Origin: Chloroflexota bacterium
Lineage (GTDB): Bacteria; Chloroflexota; Anaerolineae; B4-G1; DUEL01
Assembly: GCA_011388675.1 (NCBI GenBank)
Contig: DROW01000032.1
Span: forward strand, 1 to 43,542
DNA: 43,542 bases
Reading direction: 5' to 3'
Below are positions 13,214 to 43,400 of the stretch, piece by piece. The notes under the pieces were generated by a model. That model saw only the letters and a program-made list of their open reading frames with translations. It did not search any database and was not told where the DNA came from. The position numbers and the translations under genes were made by a program. Each line of letters opens with the position of its first letter. Positions within the stretch are counted from its first letter, which is position 1.

Positions 13214-14454
13214 TCGACGACCTCCCCGACGAACAGGCCGCTGTGCAAGGCGACGAGCCGGGTGCGCACGATCCGGCCGGTCAGCCTCTCCCCAAACGAC
13301 GTAACAACGCGCAGGTAGTTGTCCGTCAGTCCGTACCAGAGGCCATCGTCGCGGCGGTGCTCCCAGAGGACCCCCATCTCGCGGCCCACGAACTGTTGCT
13401 GGTACGTTTCGGCCAGTCGCTTACCCACCTCTCGCATCCGGTGGGCCCGCTCCCGCCGGACGGCGACGGGCACTTGGTCGGGCAAGCGCGCAGCAGGGGT
13501 CCCCGGCCGGGGGGAGAAGGGGAAGACGTGGAGCCGGGCGAAGCCCATCCGCTCGACGAAGGCCAGACTCTCGGCGAAGGCCGCTTCGTCCTCGCCGGGG
13601 AAGCCGACCATCATGTCGGTGGTCAGGGCCAGGTCGGGGATGGCGGCATGGGCGGTCTCCACCAGCGCCGCGTACCGGGCCGTGGTGATGGGCCGCCCCA
13701 TCCGGCGCAGCGTCGCGTCGCACCCGGCCTGCAGCGGCAGGTGGAGTTGGCGACAGAGACGGGGGTTCTCCCACAGGCGGAAGAACTCCTCGTCCAGGTC
13801 CCACGGCTCCACCGACGAGAGCCGCAGGCGGGGAACGTCGGTGTGGGTCAGCACCGCCTCCACCAGCCGGTGCAGCCCGCGCTCCATCCCCAGGTCGCGC
13901 CCGTAGGAGCCCAAATTGACTCCTGTGAGCACGACCTCCTGGTAACCCTCCGTCGTCCGCTCCTGCACCTCGGCGAGCACCTCTTCGAGGGGACGGCTGC
14001 GCCCCGGCCCGCGCAGGATGCGGACGATGCAGTAGGTACAGTGGTTGTCGCACCCATCCTGCGCTTTGACGAAAGCCCGGGTCCGCAACCTCCCCCGCTT
14101 TCCCGCTTCCTCGCTTCCCTCCATCCCCACGAACCGCTCGACGAACGTCTCCTTCCCCTCGTTCGGCACCACCCACGCCACACCGGGAAACTGGGCGAAG
14201 GTCTCCGGGGCTAGGGTGGCCGCGCAGCCGACCACGGCGATGCGGGCCCGAGGATTGGCCCGGTGGAGGGCACGGACCGCGTGGCGGGTCTTTCGCTCCG
14301 CCTCGGCGGTGACGGCGCAGGTGTTGACGATACAGACGTCGGCCTGGGACGGCTCATCCACCACGGCGTGGCCCGCCGTCGCCAGCCGTCGCGCCATCGC
14401 CTCGATCTCGCTCCAGTTCAGCCGACAGCCCAGGCTGTGCAGGTAAACCCGCAC
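13210..14454 (-). CDS. mtaB: tRNA (N6-threonylcarbamoyladenosine(37)-C2)-methylthiotransferase MtaB
   Basis: Radical SAM enzyme that adds a methylthio group to t6A37 of tRNA, giving ms2t6A. In 414 residues: an N-terminal UPF0004 domain with Cys ligands for one 4Fe-4S cluster (SLGCRLNWSE, NTCAVTAEAE, VVGCAA), a radical SAM core with CDNHCTYC for the second cluster, and a C-terminal TRAM-like region. The sequence opening and the CRLN motif favour MtaB over MiaB or RimO. A GTG start follows GGGGGAGAGAG. Between the UPF0004 and radical SAM domains an octamer array (14097-14120) is translated in frame as part of EGSEEAGKRG; see findings. It overlaps hinT by four bases. Confidence 0.93.
   Translation of the reverse strand: MRVYLHSLGCRLNWSEIEAMARRLATAGHAVVDEPSQADVCIVNTCAVTAEAERKTRHAVRALHRANPRARIAVVGCAATLAPETFAQFPGVAWVVPNEGKETFVERFVGMEGSEEAGKRGRLRTRAFVKAQDGCDNHCTYCIVRILRGPGRSRPLEEVLAEVQERTTEGYQEVVLTGVNLGSYGRDLGMERGLHRLVEAVLTHTDVPRLRLSSVEPWDLDEEFFRLWENPRLCRQLHLPLQAGCDATLRRMGRPITTARYAALVETAHAAIPDLALTTDMMVGFPGEDEAAFAESLAFVERMGFARLHVFPFSPRPGTPAARLPDQVPVAVRRERAHRMREVGKRLAETYQQQFVGREMGVLWEHRRDDGLWYGLTDNYLRVVTSFGERLTGRIVRTRLVALHSGLFVGEVVE
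14097..14120 (-). repeat. Octamer array within mtaB
   Basis: Three tandem octamers read on the plus strand as GCTTTCCC, GCTTCCTC, GCTTCCCT, the same unit as in the intergenic arrays at 15350, 32548 and 34074. It is in frame in mtaB. Confidence 0.65.
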
Positions 14455-14473: not shown

Positions 14474-15241
14474 TCACGACGGAATACGGTACACCCCCTG
14501 CGCGATCATCCGTTCCACGCCGCAATCCAGGTTCGCCACCCAATCGATGAACCGGTCCACCATCTCCCGCCCCTCGAACATCGCCCCGTGCTGGGGGACG
14601 ATGCGCTCGATCTCCAGCCCGCGCACCATCTCCGCCCACTGGCGGCAGACGGCGGGGGAGGGCATATACCGCTGGTGGAAGGCCTCCATATACTGCACGT
14701 GCGCGTCGAAATCCTCAACCCGGACGTACCTTCCGTCCGGCGGAAGGAGGGAGGCCCCCAGGTCGCCGGAGAAAAGGGTCTTCGAGGCGGGATCGTACAC
14801 CTGGAGGTTCCCCGCCGAGTGGAGGAAGTGGGCCGGAAGGAGGATCAGTTCAGCGTCGGCGAAGCGGATTCGGGTCCCCTCGTCGGGCACGGCCAGCACG
14901 CGCTGCTCGGCCAGCGACTGACTGCAGAACGAGGGGATGAACCGGAGCCAGATGGCCGGGAAGCAGATGGTGGCCTCGGTGATCAGAAGGTAGCCGTTCA
15001 GCCCGGCCCCCACATCCGGGTCCTGGTGGGTCAGCACGATGTAGGCCAGTTTCTGCGGCGGCAGGTACTCGGCCATCGCCGCGCTCAGTTTGGAGAACAT
15101 CCGGTTGCCGCCGGGGTCGAGCAGGACGCCCGCGTCGCCGTGGATGATGAGGAACTGGTTGGCCTGGACCTCTCCCTCGCCGGCCAGGTTGTCGAACCGG
15201 ACACACTTGTGGACGCCATCGTCGTAGAAGATCTCCGCCAT
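14474..15241 (-). CDS. ODP-type metallo-beta-lactamase-fold di-iron protein
   Basis: 255 residues of the metallo-beta-lactamase fold without a flavodoxin domain. The metal motif is LTHQDPDVGAGL rather than HxHxDH, a pattern of the oxygen-binding di-iron (ODP) branch related to flavodiiron proteins. Other ligands are seen in LPAHFLHSAGN, FSGDLGAS and PQHGAMF. It may sense or reduce oxygen; in ODP proteins of chemotaxis systems the di-iron centre senses oxygen. No partner rubredoxin, flavoprotein or chemotaxis gene is adjacent. Start at MAEIFYDDG follows GGAGGAGAGAG; a longer reading would run into the heptamer array upstream (15256-15304) and is rejected. Confidence 0.85.
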   Translation of the reverse strand: MAEIFYDDGVHKCVRFDNLAGEGEVQANQFLIIHGDAGVLLDPGGNRMFSKLSAAMAEYLPPQKLAYIVLTHQDPDVGAGLNGYLLITEATICFPAIWLRFIPSFCSQSLAEQRVLAVPDEGTRIRFADAELILLPAHFLHSAGNLQVYDPASKTLFSGDLGASLLPPDGRYVRVEDFDAHVQYMEAFHQRYMPSPAVCRQWAEMVRGLEIERIVPQHGAMFEGREMVDRFIDWVANLDCGVERMIAQGVYRIPS

Positions 15242-15255
15242 CTCTCTCCTCCTAC

Positions 15256-15304
15256 GTTCTGTGTTCTGCGTTCTGTGTTCTGCGTTCTGCGTTCTATGTT
15301 CCAC
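15256..15304. repeat. Heptamer tandem array (GTTCTGY)7
   Basis: Seven 7-bp units on the plus strand: GTTCTGT, GTTCTGC, GTTCTGT, GTTCTGC, GTTCTGC, GTTCTAT, GTTCCAC. Located just upstream of the metallo-beta-lactamase-fold gene. Confidence 0.85.
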
Positions 15305-15349
15305 GTTTCGGGTTGCAAGCCGCGTCAGGGCATCTTCCCTCTCTTTCCC

Positions 15350-15406
15350 GCTTCCCTGCTTCCCCGCTTCCCCGCTTCCCTCCCTTCCTTGCTTCCCCGC
15401 CTCCTC
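15350..15406. repeat. Octamer tandem array (GCTTCCCC), largest copy
   Basis: About seven units with period 8 (one unit of nine), consensus GCTTCCCC on the plus strand or GGGGAAGC on the minus strand. It abuts and overlaps the stop codon of the HerA-like gene (15405-15407). Confidence 0.8.
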
Positions 15407-17900
15407 AACCCTCCCCCCACGCCGCGAGGCGCACTTGCCCGCCGTCCTCTGTCTCTACCACCCACTCCGGCACCCAGGCCAGTCCGCAGTAATCGACCAC
15501 GACGTCCCGCCGACGGGGAGATACCTCCACTACCTCGATCTCCTCTAGCGTCGCCGCCCAGCGGTCGTTGATCTCCTCCACCTCCTCCTGCCACTCCTCC
15601 GCCAGCGCTTTCAACTGTGCCTCCAGGTTCTTGATCGCCTCCTCCGACTCCCGCACGTCCGCCTCGGCCTGCTTGGTGAGGCGGTGTTTCCGGCTGGCGG
15701 TGGAGAGGACGCGGGATCGACGGCCGGTCAGGAAGCCCAGGGCGGATTCGCCCAGGGTGAGCAGTTCCTCCCGCTTGCGGGCCTCCAGTTCCGCCTGATC
15801 CTCCTCCAGTTCCCGCTGCTCGCGGCGGAGTTTCTCCTGGAGCCGCTGCATCCTCTTGTCCATCTTCTTCTTCGCTTTGGCGACCTCTTCATCCCGCCGT
15901 TCGCGGGCCACCTTCTCGCAGCGACGCCGGAAATCGAGTCGCGTCTCGCCCACCTTGCCGTACAGTTTCAGCGCCGGGTTGTGCCAGATGGTAAGCCGGA
16001 CGTTGCGGTACAGGTACTCGGAGAAAGCGCGGGTCCATCGCTTGTAGGCAGTCGCCCGGGCCATATGGGCCGGCACCGGTAGGTATTCCCCTTCGCCCAC
16101 CGGCTCGTGGGAGAGATCGTCCGGATCGAGATCCACCTCCCCCTCCTCCCAGTTCACCGGGGCCGGAGGGGGCGGTGGCTCCACCAGCCGGGCCACCGTT
16201 TCCTGGTGGCGCACCCCCTTCCGCTCGTCCTCCAGATAGACGGTCCCCACCGCCAACAGCCGAGGCTGGTAGACGAGCCGCTTGGACCGAACGACGACCT
16301 CCCTTCCAGTCCGTTCCTCGTGCTGACGGAGCGCCCACTCAAAGGTGTCGGCAGCAGGGAGGAAGATCTGCGGGACCGAGGAGGGCAGGGTGGGAAGCGT
16401 CGAGACCGTCGGCATCTCGGAGGCCGGCGCTGGCGGGGACGGCGGAGCCGCGGACGTCGGGGCAGCGGCGGAGGGCCGCTCCCGCATCGGGGCACCGACC
16501 AGTTGGCGGACCTGCGCCCGCGTGAGGGGGCCGCGGAGGTAGGACATCGCCCAGCGGGTGTGGAAGAAGACGGGGCGGTCGGCACGGATGTCGTGGAGGA
16601 GGAATACGCGCGACTTGAGGCCGGTGATCGCTTTATCCAGGCTGGCCCGGTCGAACCCGGCACCCGCCGCCCGGGTCGCCCCCTCCAGCCCTTCCAACAC
16701 CCGATCCTTGTCCCGCTCCGTCCGCAGCGTGCCGATGGCCCAGGTCCCGGCGTTGCTCAACCCCTTGTAGTCCAGATCGACCGGGTTCTGGGTAGCCAGG
16801 ACCACCCCCAGCCCGGCGGCGCGGCCCTGCTTGATCAGAGCCAGCAGCGGCTGTTTCGTCGGTGGGTTGGCGGGATGGGGTGGGAAGAAGCCGAAAACCT
16901 CGTCGAAGTAGAGGATCGCCCGCAGGTCGGACGTGCCGGGCTGGGCGGCCATCCAGTCGCGGACCGCTTCCAGGAGCAGGGTGACGAAGAAGTGCCGCTC
17001 CGTGTCGTCCAGGTGGGGCAGGTAGAAGAGGTTGGCCCGCGGGCGACCGTCCTCCGTGCGGAGCATCGGGCCGATCTCCAGCGGTGTCCCCTCCCGCCAG
17101 ACCTCGAAGCCGGGGGAGGCGAAGATGTTGTTCAGGGCACGGGCCAGCGACATCCGTTCCTTCTCCGGCAGGAAACTCTCCAGGTCGAACACGCCCACCT
17201 GCCGGACCGGTGGCTGCTGGATCAGCCGGATCAGCGTCGGCAGGTCGAGCCCTTGCCCCGACCGCCAGACGTGCTCGACGATCAGGGAGAGCAGGACGTG
17301 CTCGGGGCTCTGGAGGGGGTCGGCCTCCCGCCCGACGAGGCTGAGCAGGGCGGACACCAACCCCTGGATCCGCTCCCGCAGCGTCTCCTCGTGGGTCTCC
17401 CAGTCCAGCGCGGGCGGGTCGAACCGGTGGAGGACGTTCACCGGCACGCCGGCCTTGGACCCCGGCGTGTAGAGGATCATCTCCGAGCCCTCCCGCAGGC
17501 GGGCAAGCCGATCCGGCCCGATCCCCCAGTCGCCCAGGCCGTTCCGCCACAGGGTTGCCGCCTGCTCGGCGGCCTGCTGGACGGTCAGCCCCTTGCGCTG
17601 CGCTCGCTCCGCGTCCACCCACGGCTCGAACGCTTCCGGCGACAGCGAGGGGAACGTCAACAGCAGGTTGGTCACATCCCCCTTGGGGTCGATGGCAATG
17701 ATGGGGATCCCCTGGAGCAGGGCTTCCTCCAGTAAGATCAGCCCCAGGCCGGTCTTGCCCGACCCGGTCATCCCCAGGAGGACGGCGTGGGTGGTCAGGT
17801 GACGGGCAGGGTAGAGCACGGGCCGGTCGGTGATCTTTTCCGCCTGTAGAGCGTACTCCCGTCCCAGGTAGAAGGCACCTTTCCGTTCGATCTCGCTCAT
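15405..17900 (-). CDS. HerA/FtsK-superfamily ATPase with C-terminal coiled coil (helicase HerA-like, DUF853-type)
   Basis: 831-residue cytosolic P-loop ATPase. Walker A is GMTGSGKT at residues 43-50, a DPKGD motif follows near 71, Walker B is RAILYFDEVFGFF near 327-339, and a sensor-like VVLATQNPVDLDYKG follows. This order is that of HerA-type hexameric motors. After about residue 470 a Pro/Ala linker leads to a second conserved region (WALRQHEERTGREVVVRSKR), then a long Lys/Arg/Glu coiled coil (about 640-780) and a small beta-rich C-terminus. HerA proper works with the nuclease NurA in DNA end processing; no NurA is nearby, so substrate and role are unknown. ATG start with GAGCGAGG upstream. 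It lies between ligA and the metallo-beta-lactamase-fold gene. Confidence 0.82.
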   Translation of the reverse strand: MSEIERKGAFYLGREYALQAEKITDRPVLYPARHLTTHAVLLGMTGSGKTGLGLILLEEALLQGIPIIAIDPKGDVTNLLLTFPSLSPEAFEPWVDAERAQRKGLTVQQAAEQAATLWRNGLGDWGIGPDRLARLREGSEMILYTPGSKAGVPVNVLHRFDPPALDWETHEETLRERIQGLVSALLSLVGREADPLQSPEHVLLSLIVEHVWRSGQGLDLPTLIRLIQQPPVRQVGVFDLESFLPEKERMSLARALNNIFASPGFEVWREGTPLEIGPMLRTEDGRPRANLFYLPHLDDTERHFFVTLLLEAVRDWMAAQPGTSDLRAILYFDEVFGFFPPHPANPPTKQPLLALIKQGRAAGLGVVLATQNPVDLDYKGLSNAGTWAIGTLRTERDKDRVLEGLEGATRAAGAGFDRASLDKAITGLKSRVFLLHDIRADRPVFFHTRWAMSYLRGPLTRAQVRQLVGAPMRERPSAAAPTSAAPPSPPAPASEMPTVSTLPTLPSSVPQIFLPAADTFEWALRQHEERTGREVVVRSKRLVYQPRLLAVGTVYLEDERKGVRHQETVARLVEPPPPPAPVNWEEGEVDLDPDDLSHEPVGEGEYLPVPAHMARATAYKRWTRAFSEYLYRNVRLTIWHNPALKLYGKVGETRLDFRRRCEKVARERRDEEVAKAKKKMDKRMQRLQEKLRREQRELEEDQAELEARKREELLTLGESALGFLTGRRSRVLSTASRKHRLTKQAEADVRESEEAIKNLEAQLKALAEEWQEEVEEINDRWAATLEEIEVVEVSPRRRDVVVDYCGLAWVPEWVVETEDGGQVRLAAWGEG

Positions 17901-32528: not shown

Positions 32529-32547
32529 CTCGCTCCTCTGTCTCCCT

Positions 32548-32595
32548 GCTTCCCCGCCTCCCTGCCTTCCCGCTTCCCCGCTTCCTCACTTCCGC
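32548..32595. repeat. Octamer tandem array between recR and the peptidase gene
   Basis: Six 8-bp units on the plus strand: GCTTCCCC, GCCTCCCT, GCCTTCCC, GCTTCCCC, GCTTCCTC, ACTTCCGC. It abuts the recR stop (32595-32597). Confidence 0.8.
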
Positions 32596-33194
32596 TACAC
32601 CTCTTTCCGCCCCTCCAGCGCGTTCGCTAGGGTGATCTGATCGGCGTACTCTAGGTCCCCGCCGACGGGGAGGCCCCGGCCCAACCGGGTGATCCGCACG
32701 CCGAAGGGGCGCAGTTTAGAGACGAGGTAGGCGGCGGTGTAATCCCCCTCGCTGGTGGGATTGGTCGCCAGGATGACCTCCTTCACCTCGCCGGTCCGCA
32801 CCCGCTGTAGCAACTCCGCGATGCGCAGGTCCTCGGCGAAGACCCCTTCGATGGGGGCCAGCGCGCCGTGGAGGACGTGGTACAGGCCGCGATACTGCTC
32901 CGTCCGCTCGATGGCCAGCACGTCCAGCGGCTCCTCCACCACGCAGATGGTGGACCGGTCCCGTGCCGGATCGCTGCAGATCGGACAGGGGTCCTCCTCG
33001 GTGATGTTGAAGCAGACGGAACAGAAGCGGGTCTTCTCCTTCAGGTCGCGCAGGGCCTCGGCGAGGCGCAGCGGGAGATCGGACTCGGCCCGCAGGAGGA
33101 AGAAGGTGAGCCGGGAGGCCGTCTTCGGCCCGATCCCCGGCAGTTCCGAGAGCGTCTCGATCAATCGCTCCACAGAGGGAGGCATTGCCTGCAT
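32595..33194 (-). CDS. recR: Recombination mediator RecR
   Basis: Acts with RecO and RecF to load RecA at gaps. 199 residues: an N-terminal helix-hairpin-helix (LSELPGIGPKTASRLTFFLL), a four-Cys zinc finger (CSVCFNITEEDPCPIC), a Toprim domain (VVEEPLDVLAIERTEQYRGL) and the C-terminal GRGLPVGGDLEYADQITL motif. ATG 33194 chosen for its GGAGGAACG site; an in-frame ATG three codons on is possible. It is normally next to ybaB and dnaX; here an FkbM gene intervenes. Confidence 0.96.
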   Translation of the reverse strand: MQAMPPSVERLIETLSELPGIGPKTASRLTFFLLRAESDLPLRLAEALRDLKEKTRFCSVCFNITEEDPCPICSDPARDRSTICVVEEPLDVLAIERTEQYRGLYHVLHGALAPIEGVFAEDLRIAELLQRVRTGEVKEVILATNPTSEGDYTAAYLVSKLRPFGVRITRLGRGLPVGGDLEYADQITLANALEGRKEV

Positions 33195-33202
33195 CGTTCC
33201 TC

Positions 33203-33973
33203 CTAACGGTACGCGTACAACAATCCCAGGTGGCCGTGCACAGGGTTCGGGAAGACCTGCACCTGGAACCCCCTACGCCGCAGGCCGTCCGCCAGGTCCC
33301 CGTGGGAACGGTCCGTGAAGCCGTCGTGGTACTCCACACAGATGCGCTGAATCCTTTCGAACACGGTCGGATGGGCGTCGAGGAGGGTCTCGAACTCGCA
33401 GCCTTCGCAGTCGATCTTCAGGAAATCGCAGTGCGTGATCCCGCCCTGCTCGAAGGCTTCCTCCAGCGACACGACCTCGACCTCCAGCGCCGGGGACGAA
33501 TCGCCCCTCGGGACCGTGGTGTATTGGACGGCCTCCCCCGCGGCGAGGAGCCGGGTCCGCCCCGAGCGGGCCCCGACGGCGACCTGGAACGGCGTCACAT
33601 TGCGCACCCCGTTCAGCGCGATGTTCTGCTCTAGCAGTTCAAACGACTCCCGAAAGGGCTCGAAGGCGTAGATCCGGCAGCCGGGGTTCCTCCGCGCCAC
33701 GCAGACGGCGAAATCCCCGATCCCTGCCCCGACGTCGACGACGGTCCATCCGTCCTCGATCCGTGTCCCCTTCGCCTCGTACTCCCGATCCAGGCAGGTC
33801 TCCTTGACGATCCATGCGTCCATCAGGCTGCGCACGATGAACCGGCACCCGTTCCTGAGCCGCAACACGGCCCGTCGCTTCCCGAGGAGGAGTAAGAAGA
33901 GCACGTACCAGTTCTCGATCTGCCCCAGGATCGTAGGGATCGACGCCAGGTAATAGCGGACACGGGAACCCAT
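33203..33973 (-). CDS. FkbM-family SAM-dependent methyltransferase
   Basis: 256 residues. The SAM-binding loop VVDVGAGIGDFAVCVARRNP and the following acidic strand CRIYAFEPFRESFELLEQNI are clear, as is the FkbM marker HCDFLKIDCEGCEFETLLDA. The N-terminal 60 residues include a hydrophobic run (YVLFLLLLGKRRAVLRLRNG). FkbM enzymes O-methylate sugars or polyketides; no biosynthetic neighbours exist here. Placement between recR and ybaB is unusual and points to insertion. It ends eight bases before the recR start. Confidence 0.9.
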   Translation of the reverse strand: MGSRVRYYLASIPTILGQIENWYVLFLLLLGKRRAVLRLRNGCRFIVRSLMDAWIVKETCLDREYEAKGTRIEDGWTVVDVGAGIGDFAVCVARRNPGCRIYAFEPFRESFELLEQNIALNGVRNVTPFQVAVGARSGRTRLLAAGEAVQYTTVPRGDSSPALEVEVVSLEEAFEQGGITHCDFLKIDCEGCEFETLLDAHPTVFERIQRICVEYHDGFTDRSHGDLADGLRRRGFQVQVFPNPVHGHLGLLYAYR

Positions 33974-34068: not shown

Positions 34069-34073
34069 CCCTC

Positions 34074-34097
34074 GCTTCCCCGCTTCCTCGCCTCCTA
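34074..34097. repeat. Octamer tandem array at the ybaB stop codon
   Basis: GCTTCCCC, GCTTCCTC, GCCTCCTA; the last unit includes the complement of the ybaB stop (34095-34097). Confidence 0.7.
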
Positions 34098-41609: not shown

Positions 41610-41644
41610 CTTGCATCCTGCATCTTGCACCCTACGTCCTGCCC
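41610..41644. repeat. Heptamer tandem array between gmk and rhomboid
   Basis: Five 7-bp units on the plus strand: CTTGCAT, CCTGCAT, CTTGCAC, CCTACGT, CCTGCCC. Lies seven bases beyond the gmk stop. Confidence 0.75.
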
Positions 41645-42727: not shown

Positions 42728-42758
42728 TCGCCCCGACCGCCCATCAGCCGGCCAACCG

Positions 42759-42793
42759 GCGACCAGCGACCAGCAACTAGCGACCAGCATCCA
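42759..42793. repeat. Heptamer tandem array at the tmk stop codon
   Basis: Five 7-bp units: GCGACCA, GCGACCA, GCAACTA, GCGACCA, GCATCCA. The unit GCAACTA holds the complement of the tmk stop (CTA at 42777-42779). A small GCCGG/CCGGC hairpin (42747-42760) borders it. Confidence 0.8.
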
Positions 42794-43400
42794 ACCTCGC
42801 CTCTACTACTGCCACGATCTCTTGCTGCACGTCCTGGATCGAGCGGGCACCGTCGATCACGACCCACCGCTCCGGTTCCATCCCGGCCAGTTCCAGATAG
42901 CCGGCCCGCACTCGGCGGTGGAAGGCCAACGCTTCCTGGTCCATCCGGTTCCACTCCCCGCCGCCCAGCAGCCGCCGTGTCAGCCCCTCGTCGGGCTGGA
43001 TGTCCAGATAGAGGGTCAGATCGGGGACCAGCCCGCCGGTGGCAATGCGGGTGATCTGCCACAGCGTCTTCAGGTCCAGCCCACGGCCGTACCCCTGGTA
43101 AGCCAGCGTGCTGTCGTAGAACCGGTCGCAGATGACCAGTTTGCCCGCCGCCAGCGCTGGCCGGATCACCTCGGCGACCAACTGGGCGCGGGAGGCGGTG
43201 TAGAGGAAGACTTCGGCCCAGGCGTACATCCCCACGTTGTCCGGGTCGTGGAGAATCCGCCGGATCTGGTCTCCAATGGGGGTTCCGCCGGGTTCCCTGG
43301 TAAGGACCACGCCGTATCCCTTCTCCCGCAGGTGCTCGGCCAGGAGCCGGGCCTGAGTGGTCTTCCCGCTGCCCTCGGGGCCCTCAAACGTGATCAACAC
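42777..43400 (-). CDS. tmk: Thymidylate kinase
   Basis: Phosphorylates dTMP to dTDP. 207 residues: P-loop ITFEGPEGSGKTTQARLLAE, DR motif ICDRFYDSTLAYQGYGRGLD, and PDLTLYLDIQP. TREPGGTPIGD has the substrate-binding Arg-Glu-Pro. GTG start with GGAGGAG upstream, six bases after the R3H gene stop. The last residues (DAGR) lie within a heptamer array. Confidence 0.95.
   Translation of the reverse strand: MLITFEGPEGSGKTTQARLLAEHLREKGYGVVLTREPGGTPIGDQIRRILHDPDNVGMYAWAEVFLYTASRAQLVAEVIRPALAAGKLVICDRFYDSTLAYQGYGRGLDLKTLWQITRIATGGLVPDLTLYLDIQPDEGLTRRLLGGGEWNRMDQEALAFHRRVRAGYLELAGMEPERWVVIDGARSIQDVQQEIVAVVEARLDAGR

Follow-up and report, generated by a model that had tools for sequence, protein, structure and literature searches.

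Introduction

The GGGAATC repeats of Xanthomonas and the GGGGA(C/T)T repeats of Nostoc lie nearer to the upstream gene, 0-50 nt from stop codons or overlapping them; each is a single heptamer family with a preference for four units, and its G-runs fold into G-quadruplexes (Rehm et al. 2015, PMC4692102). The TAACTGA heptamers of marine Beggiatoaceae, Cyanobacteria and Bacteroidetes are located mostly a few nucleotides upstream of start codons, at the Shine-Dalgarno position (MacGregor 2015, PMC4679880). In a survey of long simple sequence repeats with units of 5-11 nt, as summarized in the latter paper, heptamers dominated and expansion by slippage was proposed (Mrazek et al. 2007, via PMC4679880). 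In the phylum considered here, (GATAGRA)n heptamer satellites were described in Chloroflexus aurantiacus, which the relevant passages portray as species-specific and scattered through the genome (PMC6749651).

The repeats of the Chloroflexota genome analyzed here belong to this known kind, that is, intergenic repeats of 5-11 nt that hug stop codons as in Xanthomonas and Nostoc. Like those, they lie closer to the upstream stop, overlaps included; unlike those, they include an octamer in which A and G are free at two positions, show no enrichment of G-quadruplex (G4) motifs and comprise several unrelated families per genome. With the TAACTGA repeats they share many dispersed arrays, a gene-relative orientation, patchiness among lineages and in-unit stops that limit entry into open reading frames (ORFs), whereas their arrays are found at stop codons and mostly spare the Shine-Dalgarno region. 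They fall within the 5-11 nt unit range of the simple sequence repeats, for which position relative to stops is absent from the summary of that survey, and they differ in unit from the (GATAGRA)n satellites, for which the passages concerned report no gene-end position. No relevant account of such repeats in Thermoflexus came up in a literature search.

Repeat arrays in the window and their host genes

The window, a stretch of 43,542 nt, belongs to an uncultured Chloroflexota bacterium with a draft genome of 2.63 Mb (assembly 81% complete). Three period-8 arrays were found where the initial annotation had placed them, after a HerA-like gene, recR and ybaB, and each touches or overlaps the stop codon of a minus-strand gene, as had been stated. 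All are variants of RRGGAAGC on the coding (minus) strand and start at the stop codon. The first array (15334-15404, about eight units) lies directly 3' of the HerA-like gene (15405-17900; Pfam HerA_C/DUF87), whose TGA stop at 15405-15407 it abuts, so that the coding strand reads TGA followed by GGAGGCGGGGAAGCAAGGAAGGGAGGGAAGCGGGGAAGC. The second (32541-32594) abuts the TAG stop of recR at 32595-32597, which is followed by CGGAAGTGAGGAAGCGGGGAAGC, and fills the spacer from there to the start of an M2/M3-type peptidase gene. The third (34070-34096) extends over the TAG stop of ybaB (34095-34097), followed by GAGGCGAGGAAGCGGGGAAGCGAGG. In addition, an FkbM-type methyltransferase gene (33203-33973) separates ybaB from recR in the window, while in the sister species ybaB, the array and recR are adjacent.

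A fourth copy, assigned to mtaB in the initial annotation, is real, though weaker than the other three: a degenerate octamer run occupies 14088-14131 on the minus strand, within a variable segment on the N-terminal side of the radical-SAM domain. An insertion was rejected as its origin because the protein is of equal length in the sister species and the same 414 residues align in a remoter relative.

Heptamer arrays that the annotation had missed are also present, all given here on the coding (minus) strand. A second family, GAACRYR, occupies 15255-15307 in the same gap as the HerA-like octamer array, just upstream of an AGGAGG and the ATG at 15241 of an ODP-type metallo-beta-lactamase-fold gene (Pfam ODP). 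A GGATGCA array (41612-41642) lies just 3' of the guanylate kinase stop and upstream of a rhomboid gene. A GCTGGTC array (42755-42788) holds the TAG stop of the thymidylate kinase gene (42777-43400), supplied by a GCTAGTT variant of the unit. The ODP-type gene itself (14474-15241) sits between the HerA-like gene and mtaB, flanked by octamer and heptamer arrays; in two other genomes, G001 (L271) and G005 (L273), mtaB directly follows the HerA-like gene and the ODP-type gene is missing from that place.

Abundance and distribution of the repeat families

Within the window, the bare octamer was counted 9 times against 4.1 expected, which is a weak test alone. A two-unit octamer pattern gave 15 matches against 1.9 expected, with 6 as the largest value among shuffles, and Tandem Repeats Finder reported four arrays of period 7, 8, 14 or 16 against a mean of 0.2 and a maximum of 1 in 30 dinucleotide shuffles. 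The genome-wide count that the initial annotation had proposed as a check pointed the same way: over the whole 2.63-Mb draft, a 22-mer probe with up to three mismatches had 86 matches, and the reversed-pattern control had none. Most octamer arrays lie outside ORFs (35/43), and only 31 of 154 arrays of period 7, 8, 14 or 16 lie inside them.

The octamer is accompanied by other 7-8 bp families. Tandem Repeats Finder, run on 0.75 Mb of sequence from this genome and on 0.6 Mb from G001, a genome of the same genus, revealed GAACRYR, GGGTGAYT, GTGATGC, AGGGAGC and GGATGCA here and TGACGYT in the sister. Most non-coding arrays of this survey, which comprise several unrelated units, had a period of 7 or 8 or a multiple of these, and at the score used none of them had a period of 1-6.

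Relatives identified through RecR were metagenome-assembled Thermoflexia and other Anaerolineae; the nearest recR locus was that of Thermoflexia bacterium J88 (RecR 95% identical), and the genus was represented by a single further genome, that of a sister species with a median protein identity of about 86%. At up to two mismatches the octamer matched 50 times in G000, 23 times in G001 and 3 times in G003, and once each in two of the 38 remaining genomes; it is thus nearly limited to two genera of Thermoflexia (Chloroflexota), this one and a near one. Other units are distributed differently: in the same three genomes, GAACRYR had 63, 1 and 8 matches, GGGTGAYT 130, 22 and 15, and TTGACGY 6, 102 and 9. 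TTGACGY also reached 209 matches in G028, a distant, order-level relative, more than in any nearer one, and this patchy distribution resembles that of the TAACTGA repeats. The reversed GAACRYR control (CAAGRYR units) had many matches in G010-G012, G020 and G024, which suggests a further heptamer family. At the 80 recR loci of other genomes, nearly all of them from Chloroflexota, arrays of period 7, 8, 14 or 16 numbered 71, and six other periods that are not multiples of three together gave three. The habit of carrying 7-8 bp repeats therefore extends beyond the genus, with changing units.

Placement relative to stop codons, start codons and strand

The analysis of position and strand covered 0.75 Mb here and 0.95 Mb in the sister species. 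Of the 0.75 Mb, 0.34 Mb had been picked for octamer matches, by which octamer frequency is biased and position should not be. Genes were called by a custom script with codon-usage scoring, so that starts are less reliable than stops. In co-directional gaps, 57 of 92 arrays of period 7, 8, 14 or 16 overlapped the upstream stop or lay no more than 10 nt from it, against a mean of 30.7 and a maximum of 42 in 2000 random placements, whereas 22 of the 92 were near the downstream start against 30.8 under the same null; when the two distances were unequal, the upstream stop was the closer in 65 of 90 cases. The enrichment at stop codons expected from the initial annotation is thus real, yet partly a by-product of short spacers, since the expectation rises to 44.8 when a 20-nt start zone is reserved (stop-side 53/73, P=0.001). 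It is strong in long gaps: where 60 nt or more of the gap lay outside the array, 15 of 26 arrays were stop-side, with 3.5 expected (P=8e-8). The flush placement in these long gaps is more pronounced than would follow from arrays merely avoiding the start region.

The purine-rich strand of the octamer was said to lie on the coding strand, and this holds beyond the window: in co-directional gaps, GGRRGC-type arrays were 24 sense to 2 antisense (P=1e-5). Among the remaining families the bias is 33 to 12. Of 32 cases in which the unit carries a stop triplet, 24 had the gene's own stop within the array, compared with 4 of 46 for units without a stop (P=1e-9). At one pair of orthologs (L194/L179) the stop has kept its position, and the codons leading up to it stem from the array in the sister and are unique here. 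Most 7-8 bp families are found in co-directional gaps, biased to one strand, abutting or containing the upstream stop and avoiding the downstream start. RRGGAAGC has no special role in this, as several unrelated 7-8 bp units are placed alike.

Turnover between sister species

Orthologous junctions were compared at 127 conserved co-directional sites of the two species, with a sister coverage of 0.95 of 3.4 Mb. At recR the gap spans 66 nt here, array included, and 18 nt in the sister, which has no array there; the octamer array at this site is also absent in 23 other relatives, and in one locus (L055) an unrelated heptamer array occupies the spot after recR. Copy number varies at further orthologous sites. 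One gap (L149/L174) has about seven octamers here and about three in the sister between nearly identical flanks, another (L131/L248) has 3.4 CACGCAT heptamers here and 8.4 in the sister, and after the HerA-like stop the sister has 1.4 units (GGGAAGCAAGG) compared with about eight here. The array after ybaB is also found in the sister.

Three orthologous junctions (L133/L176, L202/L236 and L201/L244) carry different families in the two species: GGGTGAYT versus TGACGTA, GAACRYR and GTGATGC versus GAACGTC and AACGTSA types, and GGGTGAC versus GGAAGC. Gene order was conserved at 33 of 38 array junctions and at 202 of 237 junctions elsewhere, and on this ground arrays as hot spots of rearrangement were rejected. 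Octamer runs in or near ORFs at L140:3737-3787, L151:3871-3910 and L148:2729-2767 have counterparts in the sister (L157, L164 and L180), and because these stand at orthologous sites some octamer copies are older than the species split. At L144:7722-7820 and L201:4705-4780, inverted repeats of CGCAGAGA/CACAGAG type or CGTGTTGCG type were seen, found in both species; these represent a different, hairpin-forming spacer element.

The initial annotation had proposed a unit that spreads to gene ends and grows by slippage. The length changes at orthologous sites agree with slippage; spreading remains conjectural, because neither a copying agent nor a shared flank was found.

Origin and persistence of the arrays

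Based on these observations, a model is proposed, with a probability of roughly 0.6, in which slippage-prone tandem repeats of 7-8 bp, of several families, are kept wherever they leave the coding sequence and the ribosome-binding site unharmed. Units would be gained and lost by replication slippage, as the length differences between the species suggest, and selection against damage to coding sequences and ribosome-binding sites would set where arrays persist. Arrays would settle flush with the stop because the spot just past it spares both the upstream protein and the downstream ribosome-binding site. An array whose unit bears TGA or TAG in the coding orientation can overgrow the gene end and itself provide the stop, as the statistics on stop-bearing units show, while arrays of stop-less units such as RRGGAAGC would start right behind the existing stop. 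The strand bias of stop-bearing units would follow from the same positional filter, and that of RRGGAAGC most likely reflects a tolerance of purine-rich mRNA before the start codon.

Mismatch repair fixes slippage loops of 1-4 nt and does not fix loops of 7-8 nt. Loss of mismatch repair was rejected as a cause, since MutS is present in the genome; its presence is compatible with the persistence of only those loops that are too long for mismatch repair, and is no proof of it. Slippage acts in place and by itself leaves one unit at dozens of unrelated junctions unexplained. That recurrence may have arisen by copying between loci, or short matches may have seeded the unit repeatedly.

An origin directed by the stop codon itself was also considered, in which the ribosome-free, purine-rich nascent RNA past the stop forms R-loops, whose displaced strand gives rise to repeats at gene ends through slippage or template switching. 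The flush placement even in long gaps, the strand bias of purine-rich units and the like placement of unrelated families would all be accounted for in this way; however, purine-balanced families and antisense arrays are placed alike, and this origin is held to be unlikely. A broader version, in which a process tied to termination, for example through R-loops, makes 7-8 bp arrays at gene 3' ends regardless of sequence and unrelated families converge there and replace each other, is likewise considered improbable.

The initial annotation had read the purine-rich strand as a mimic of ribosome binding sites for the next gene, and a corresponding function can be formulated, namely that the array acts as a Shine-Dalgarno-like spacer that holds or recruits post-termination ribosomes and aids re-initiation. 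The 24-to-2 orientation of octamer arrays, mostly in co-directional gaps, fits this function, as do a few arrays that stand at the Shine-Dalgarno position, ending 0-13 nt upstream of a start codon with GAGGAG-like ends; the M2/M3-type peptidase 3' of recR is one case. As the driver of the arrays, however, such mimicry fails on pairing: the anti-Shine-Dalgarno energy of the octamer (-8.5) is close to that of start regions (-8.0) and weaker than that of composition shuffles (-11.5), and pairing above composition at 4-13 nt before the start was not found. GGGTGAYT pairs at -9.6, but most other families reach only -0.4 to -3.5 (GAACRYR, TGACGYN and CACAGAG barely pair), yet are placed alike. The arrays moreover avoid the start side, and in the sister recR and the peptidase gene are adjacent without an array. 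A Shine-Dalgarno function is thus judged an unlikely explanation for the arrays as a whole.

A mobile repeat of the REP/MITE kind, copied by a transposase, is very improbable. The copies are dispersed and some form inverted, hairpin-capable pairs (L144 10183-10254, L145 10179-10301), but most arrays are single and direct, and flanks are shared only between orthologs or as a continuing array. Both a carrier element recognizable by common flanks and copying by a RAYT transposase were rejected, as no non-orthologous flank matches extended beyond the repeat and no Y1 transposase (RAYT, Y1_Tnp) was detected in this genome, of which the assembly is 81% complete. The two inverted octamer pairs could fold into long hairpins; one lies between convergent genes, and this one may be a terminator.

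A G-quadruplex element at transcript 3' ends, as was considered for the GGGAATC repeats, is equally remote: some arrays have four G-runs, and position and strand equal those of the Xanthomonas repeats, but a G4 motif occurred in 14 of 74 arrays against 10.5 after shuffling, unit positions 1-2 vary freely between A and G so that G-runs are not kept, and most other families are not G4-forming, upon which selection for G-quadruplexes was rejected.

Implications

The present lineage adds to the described repeats an octamer unit, several families placed alike in one genome and the replacement of one family by another at orthologous junctions. Stop-hugging is not tied to a single G-quadruplex heptamer, as several unrelated 7-8 bp families show it in one lineage, and the placement rule, that is, what gene ends tolerate, is separable from the sequence of the repeat. 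In conclusion, these junctions offer natural replicates for studying the birth of bacterial microsatellites and their editing of protein C-termini.
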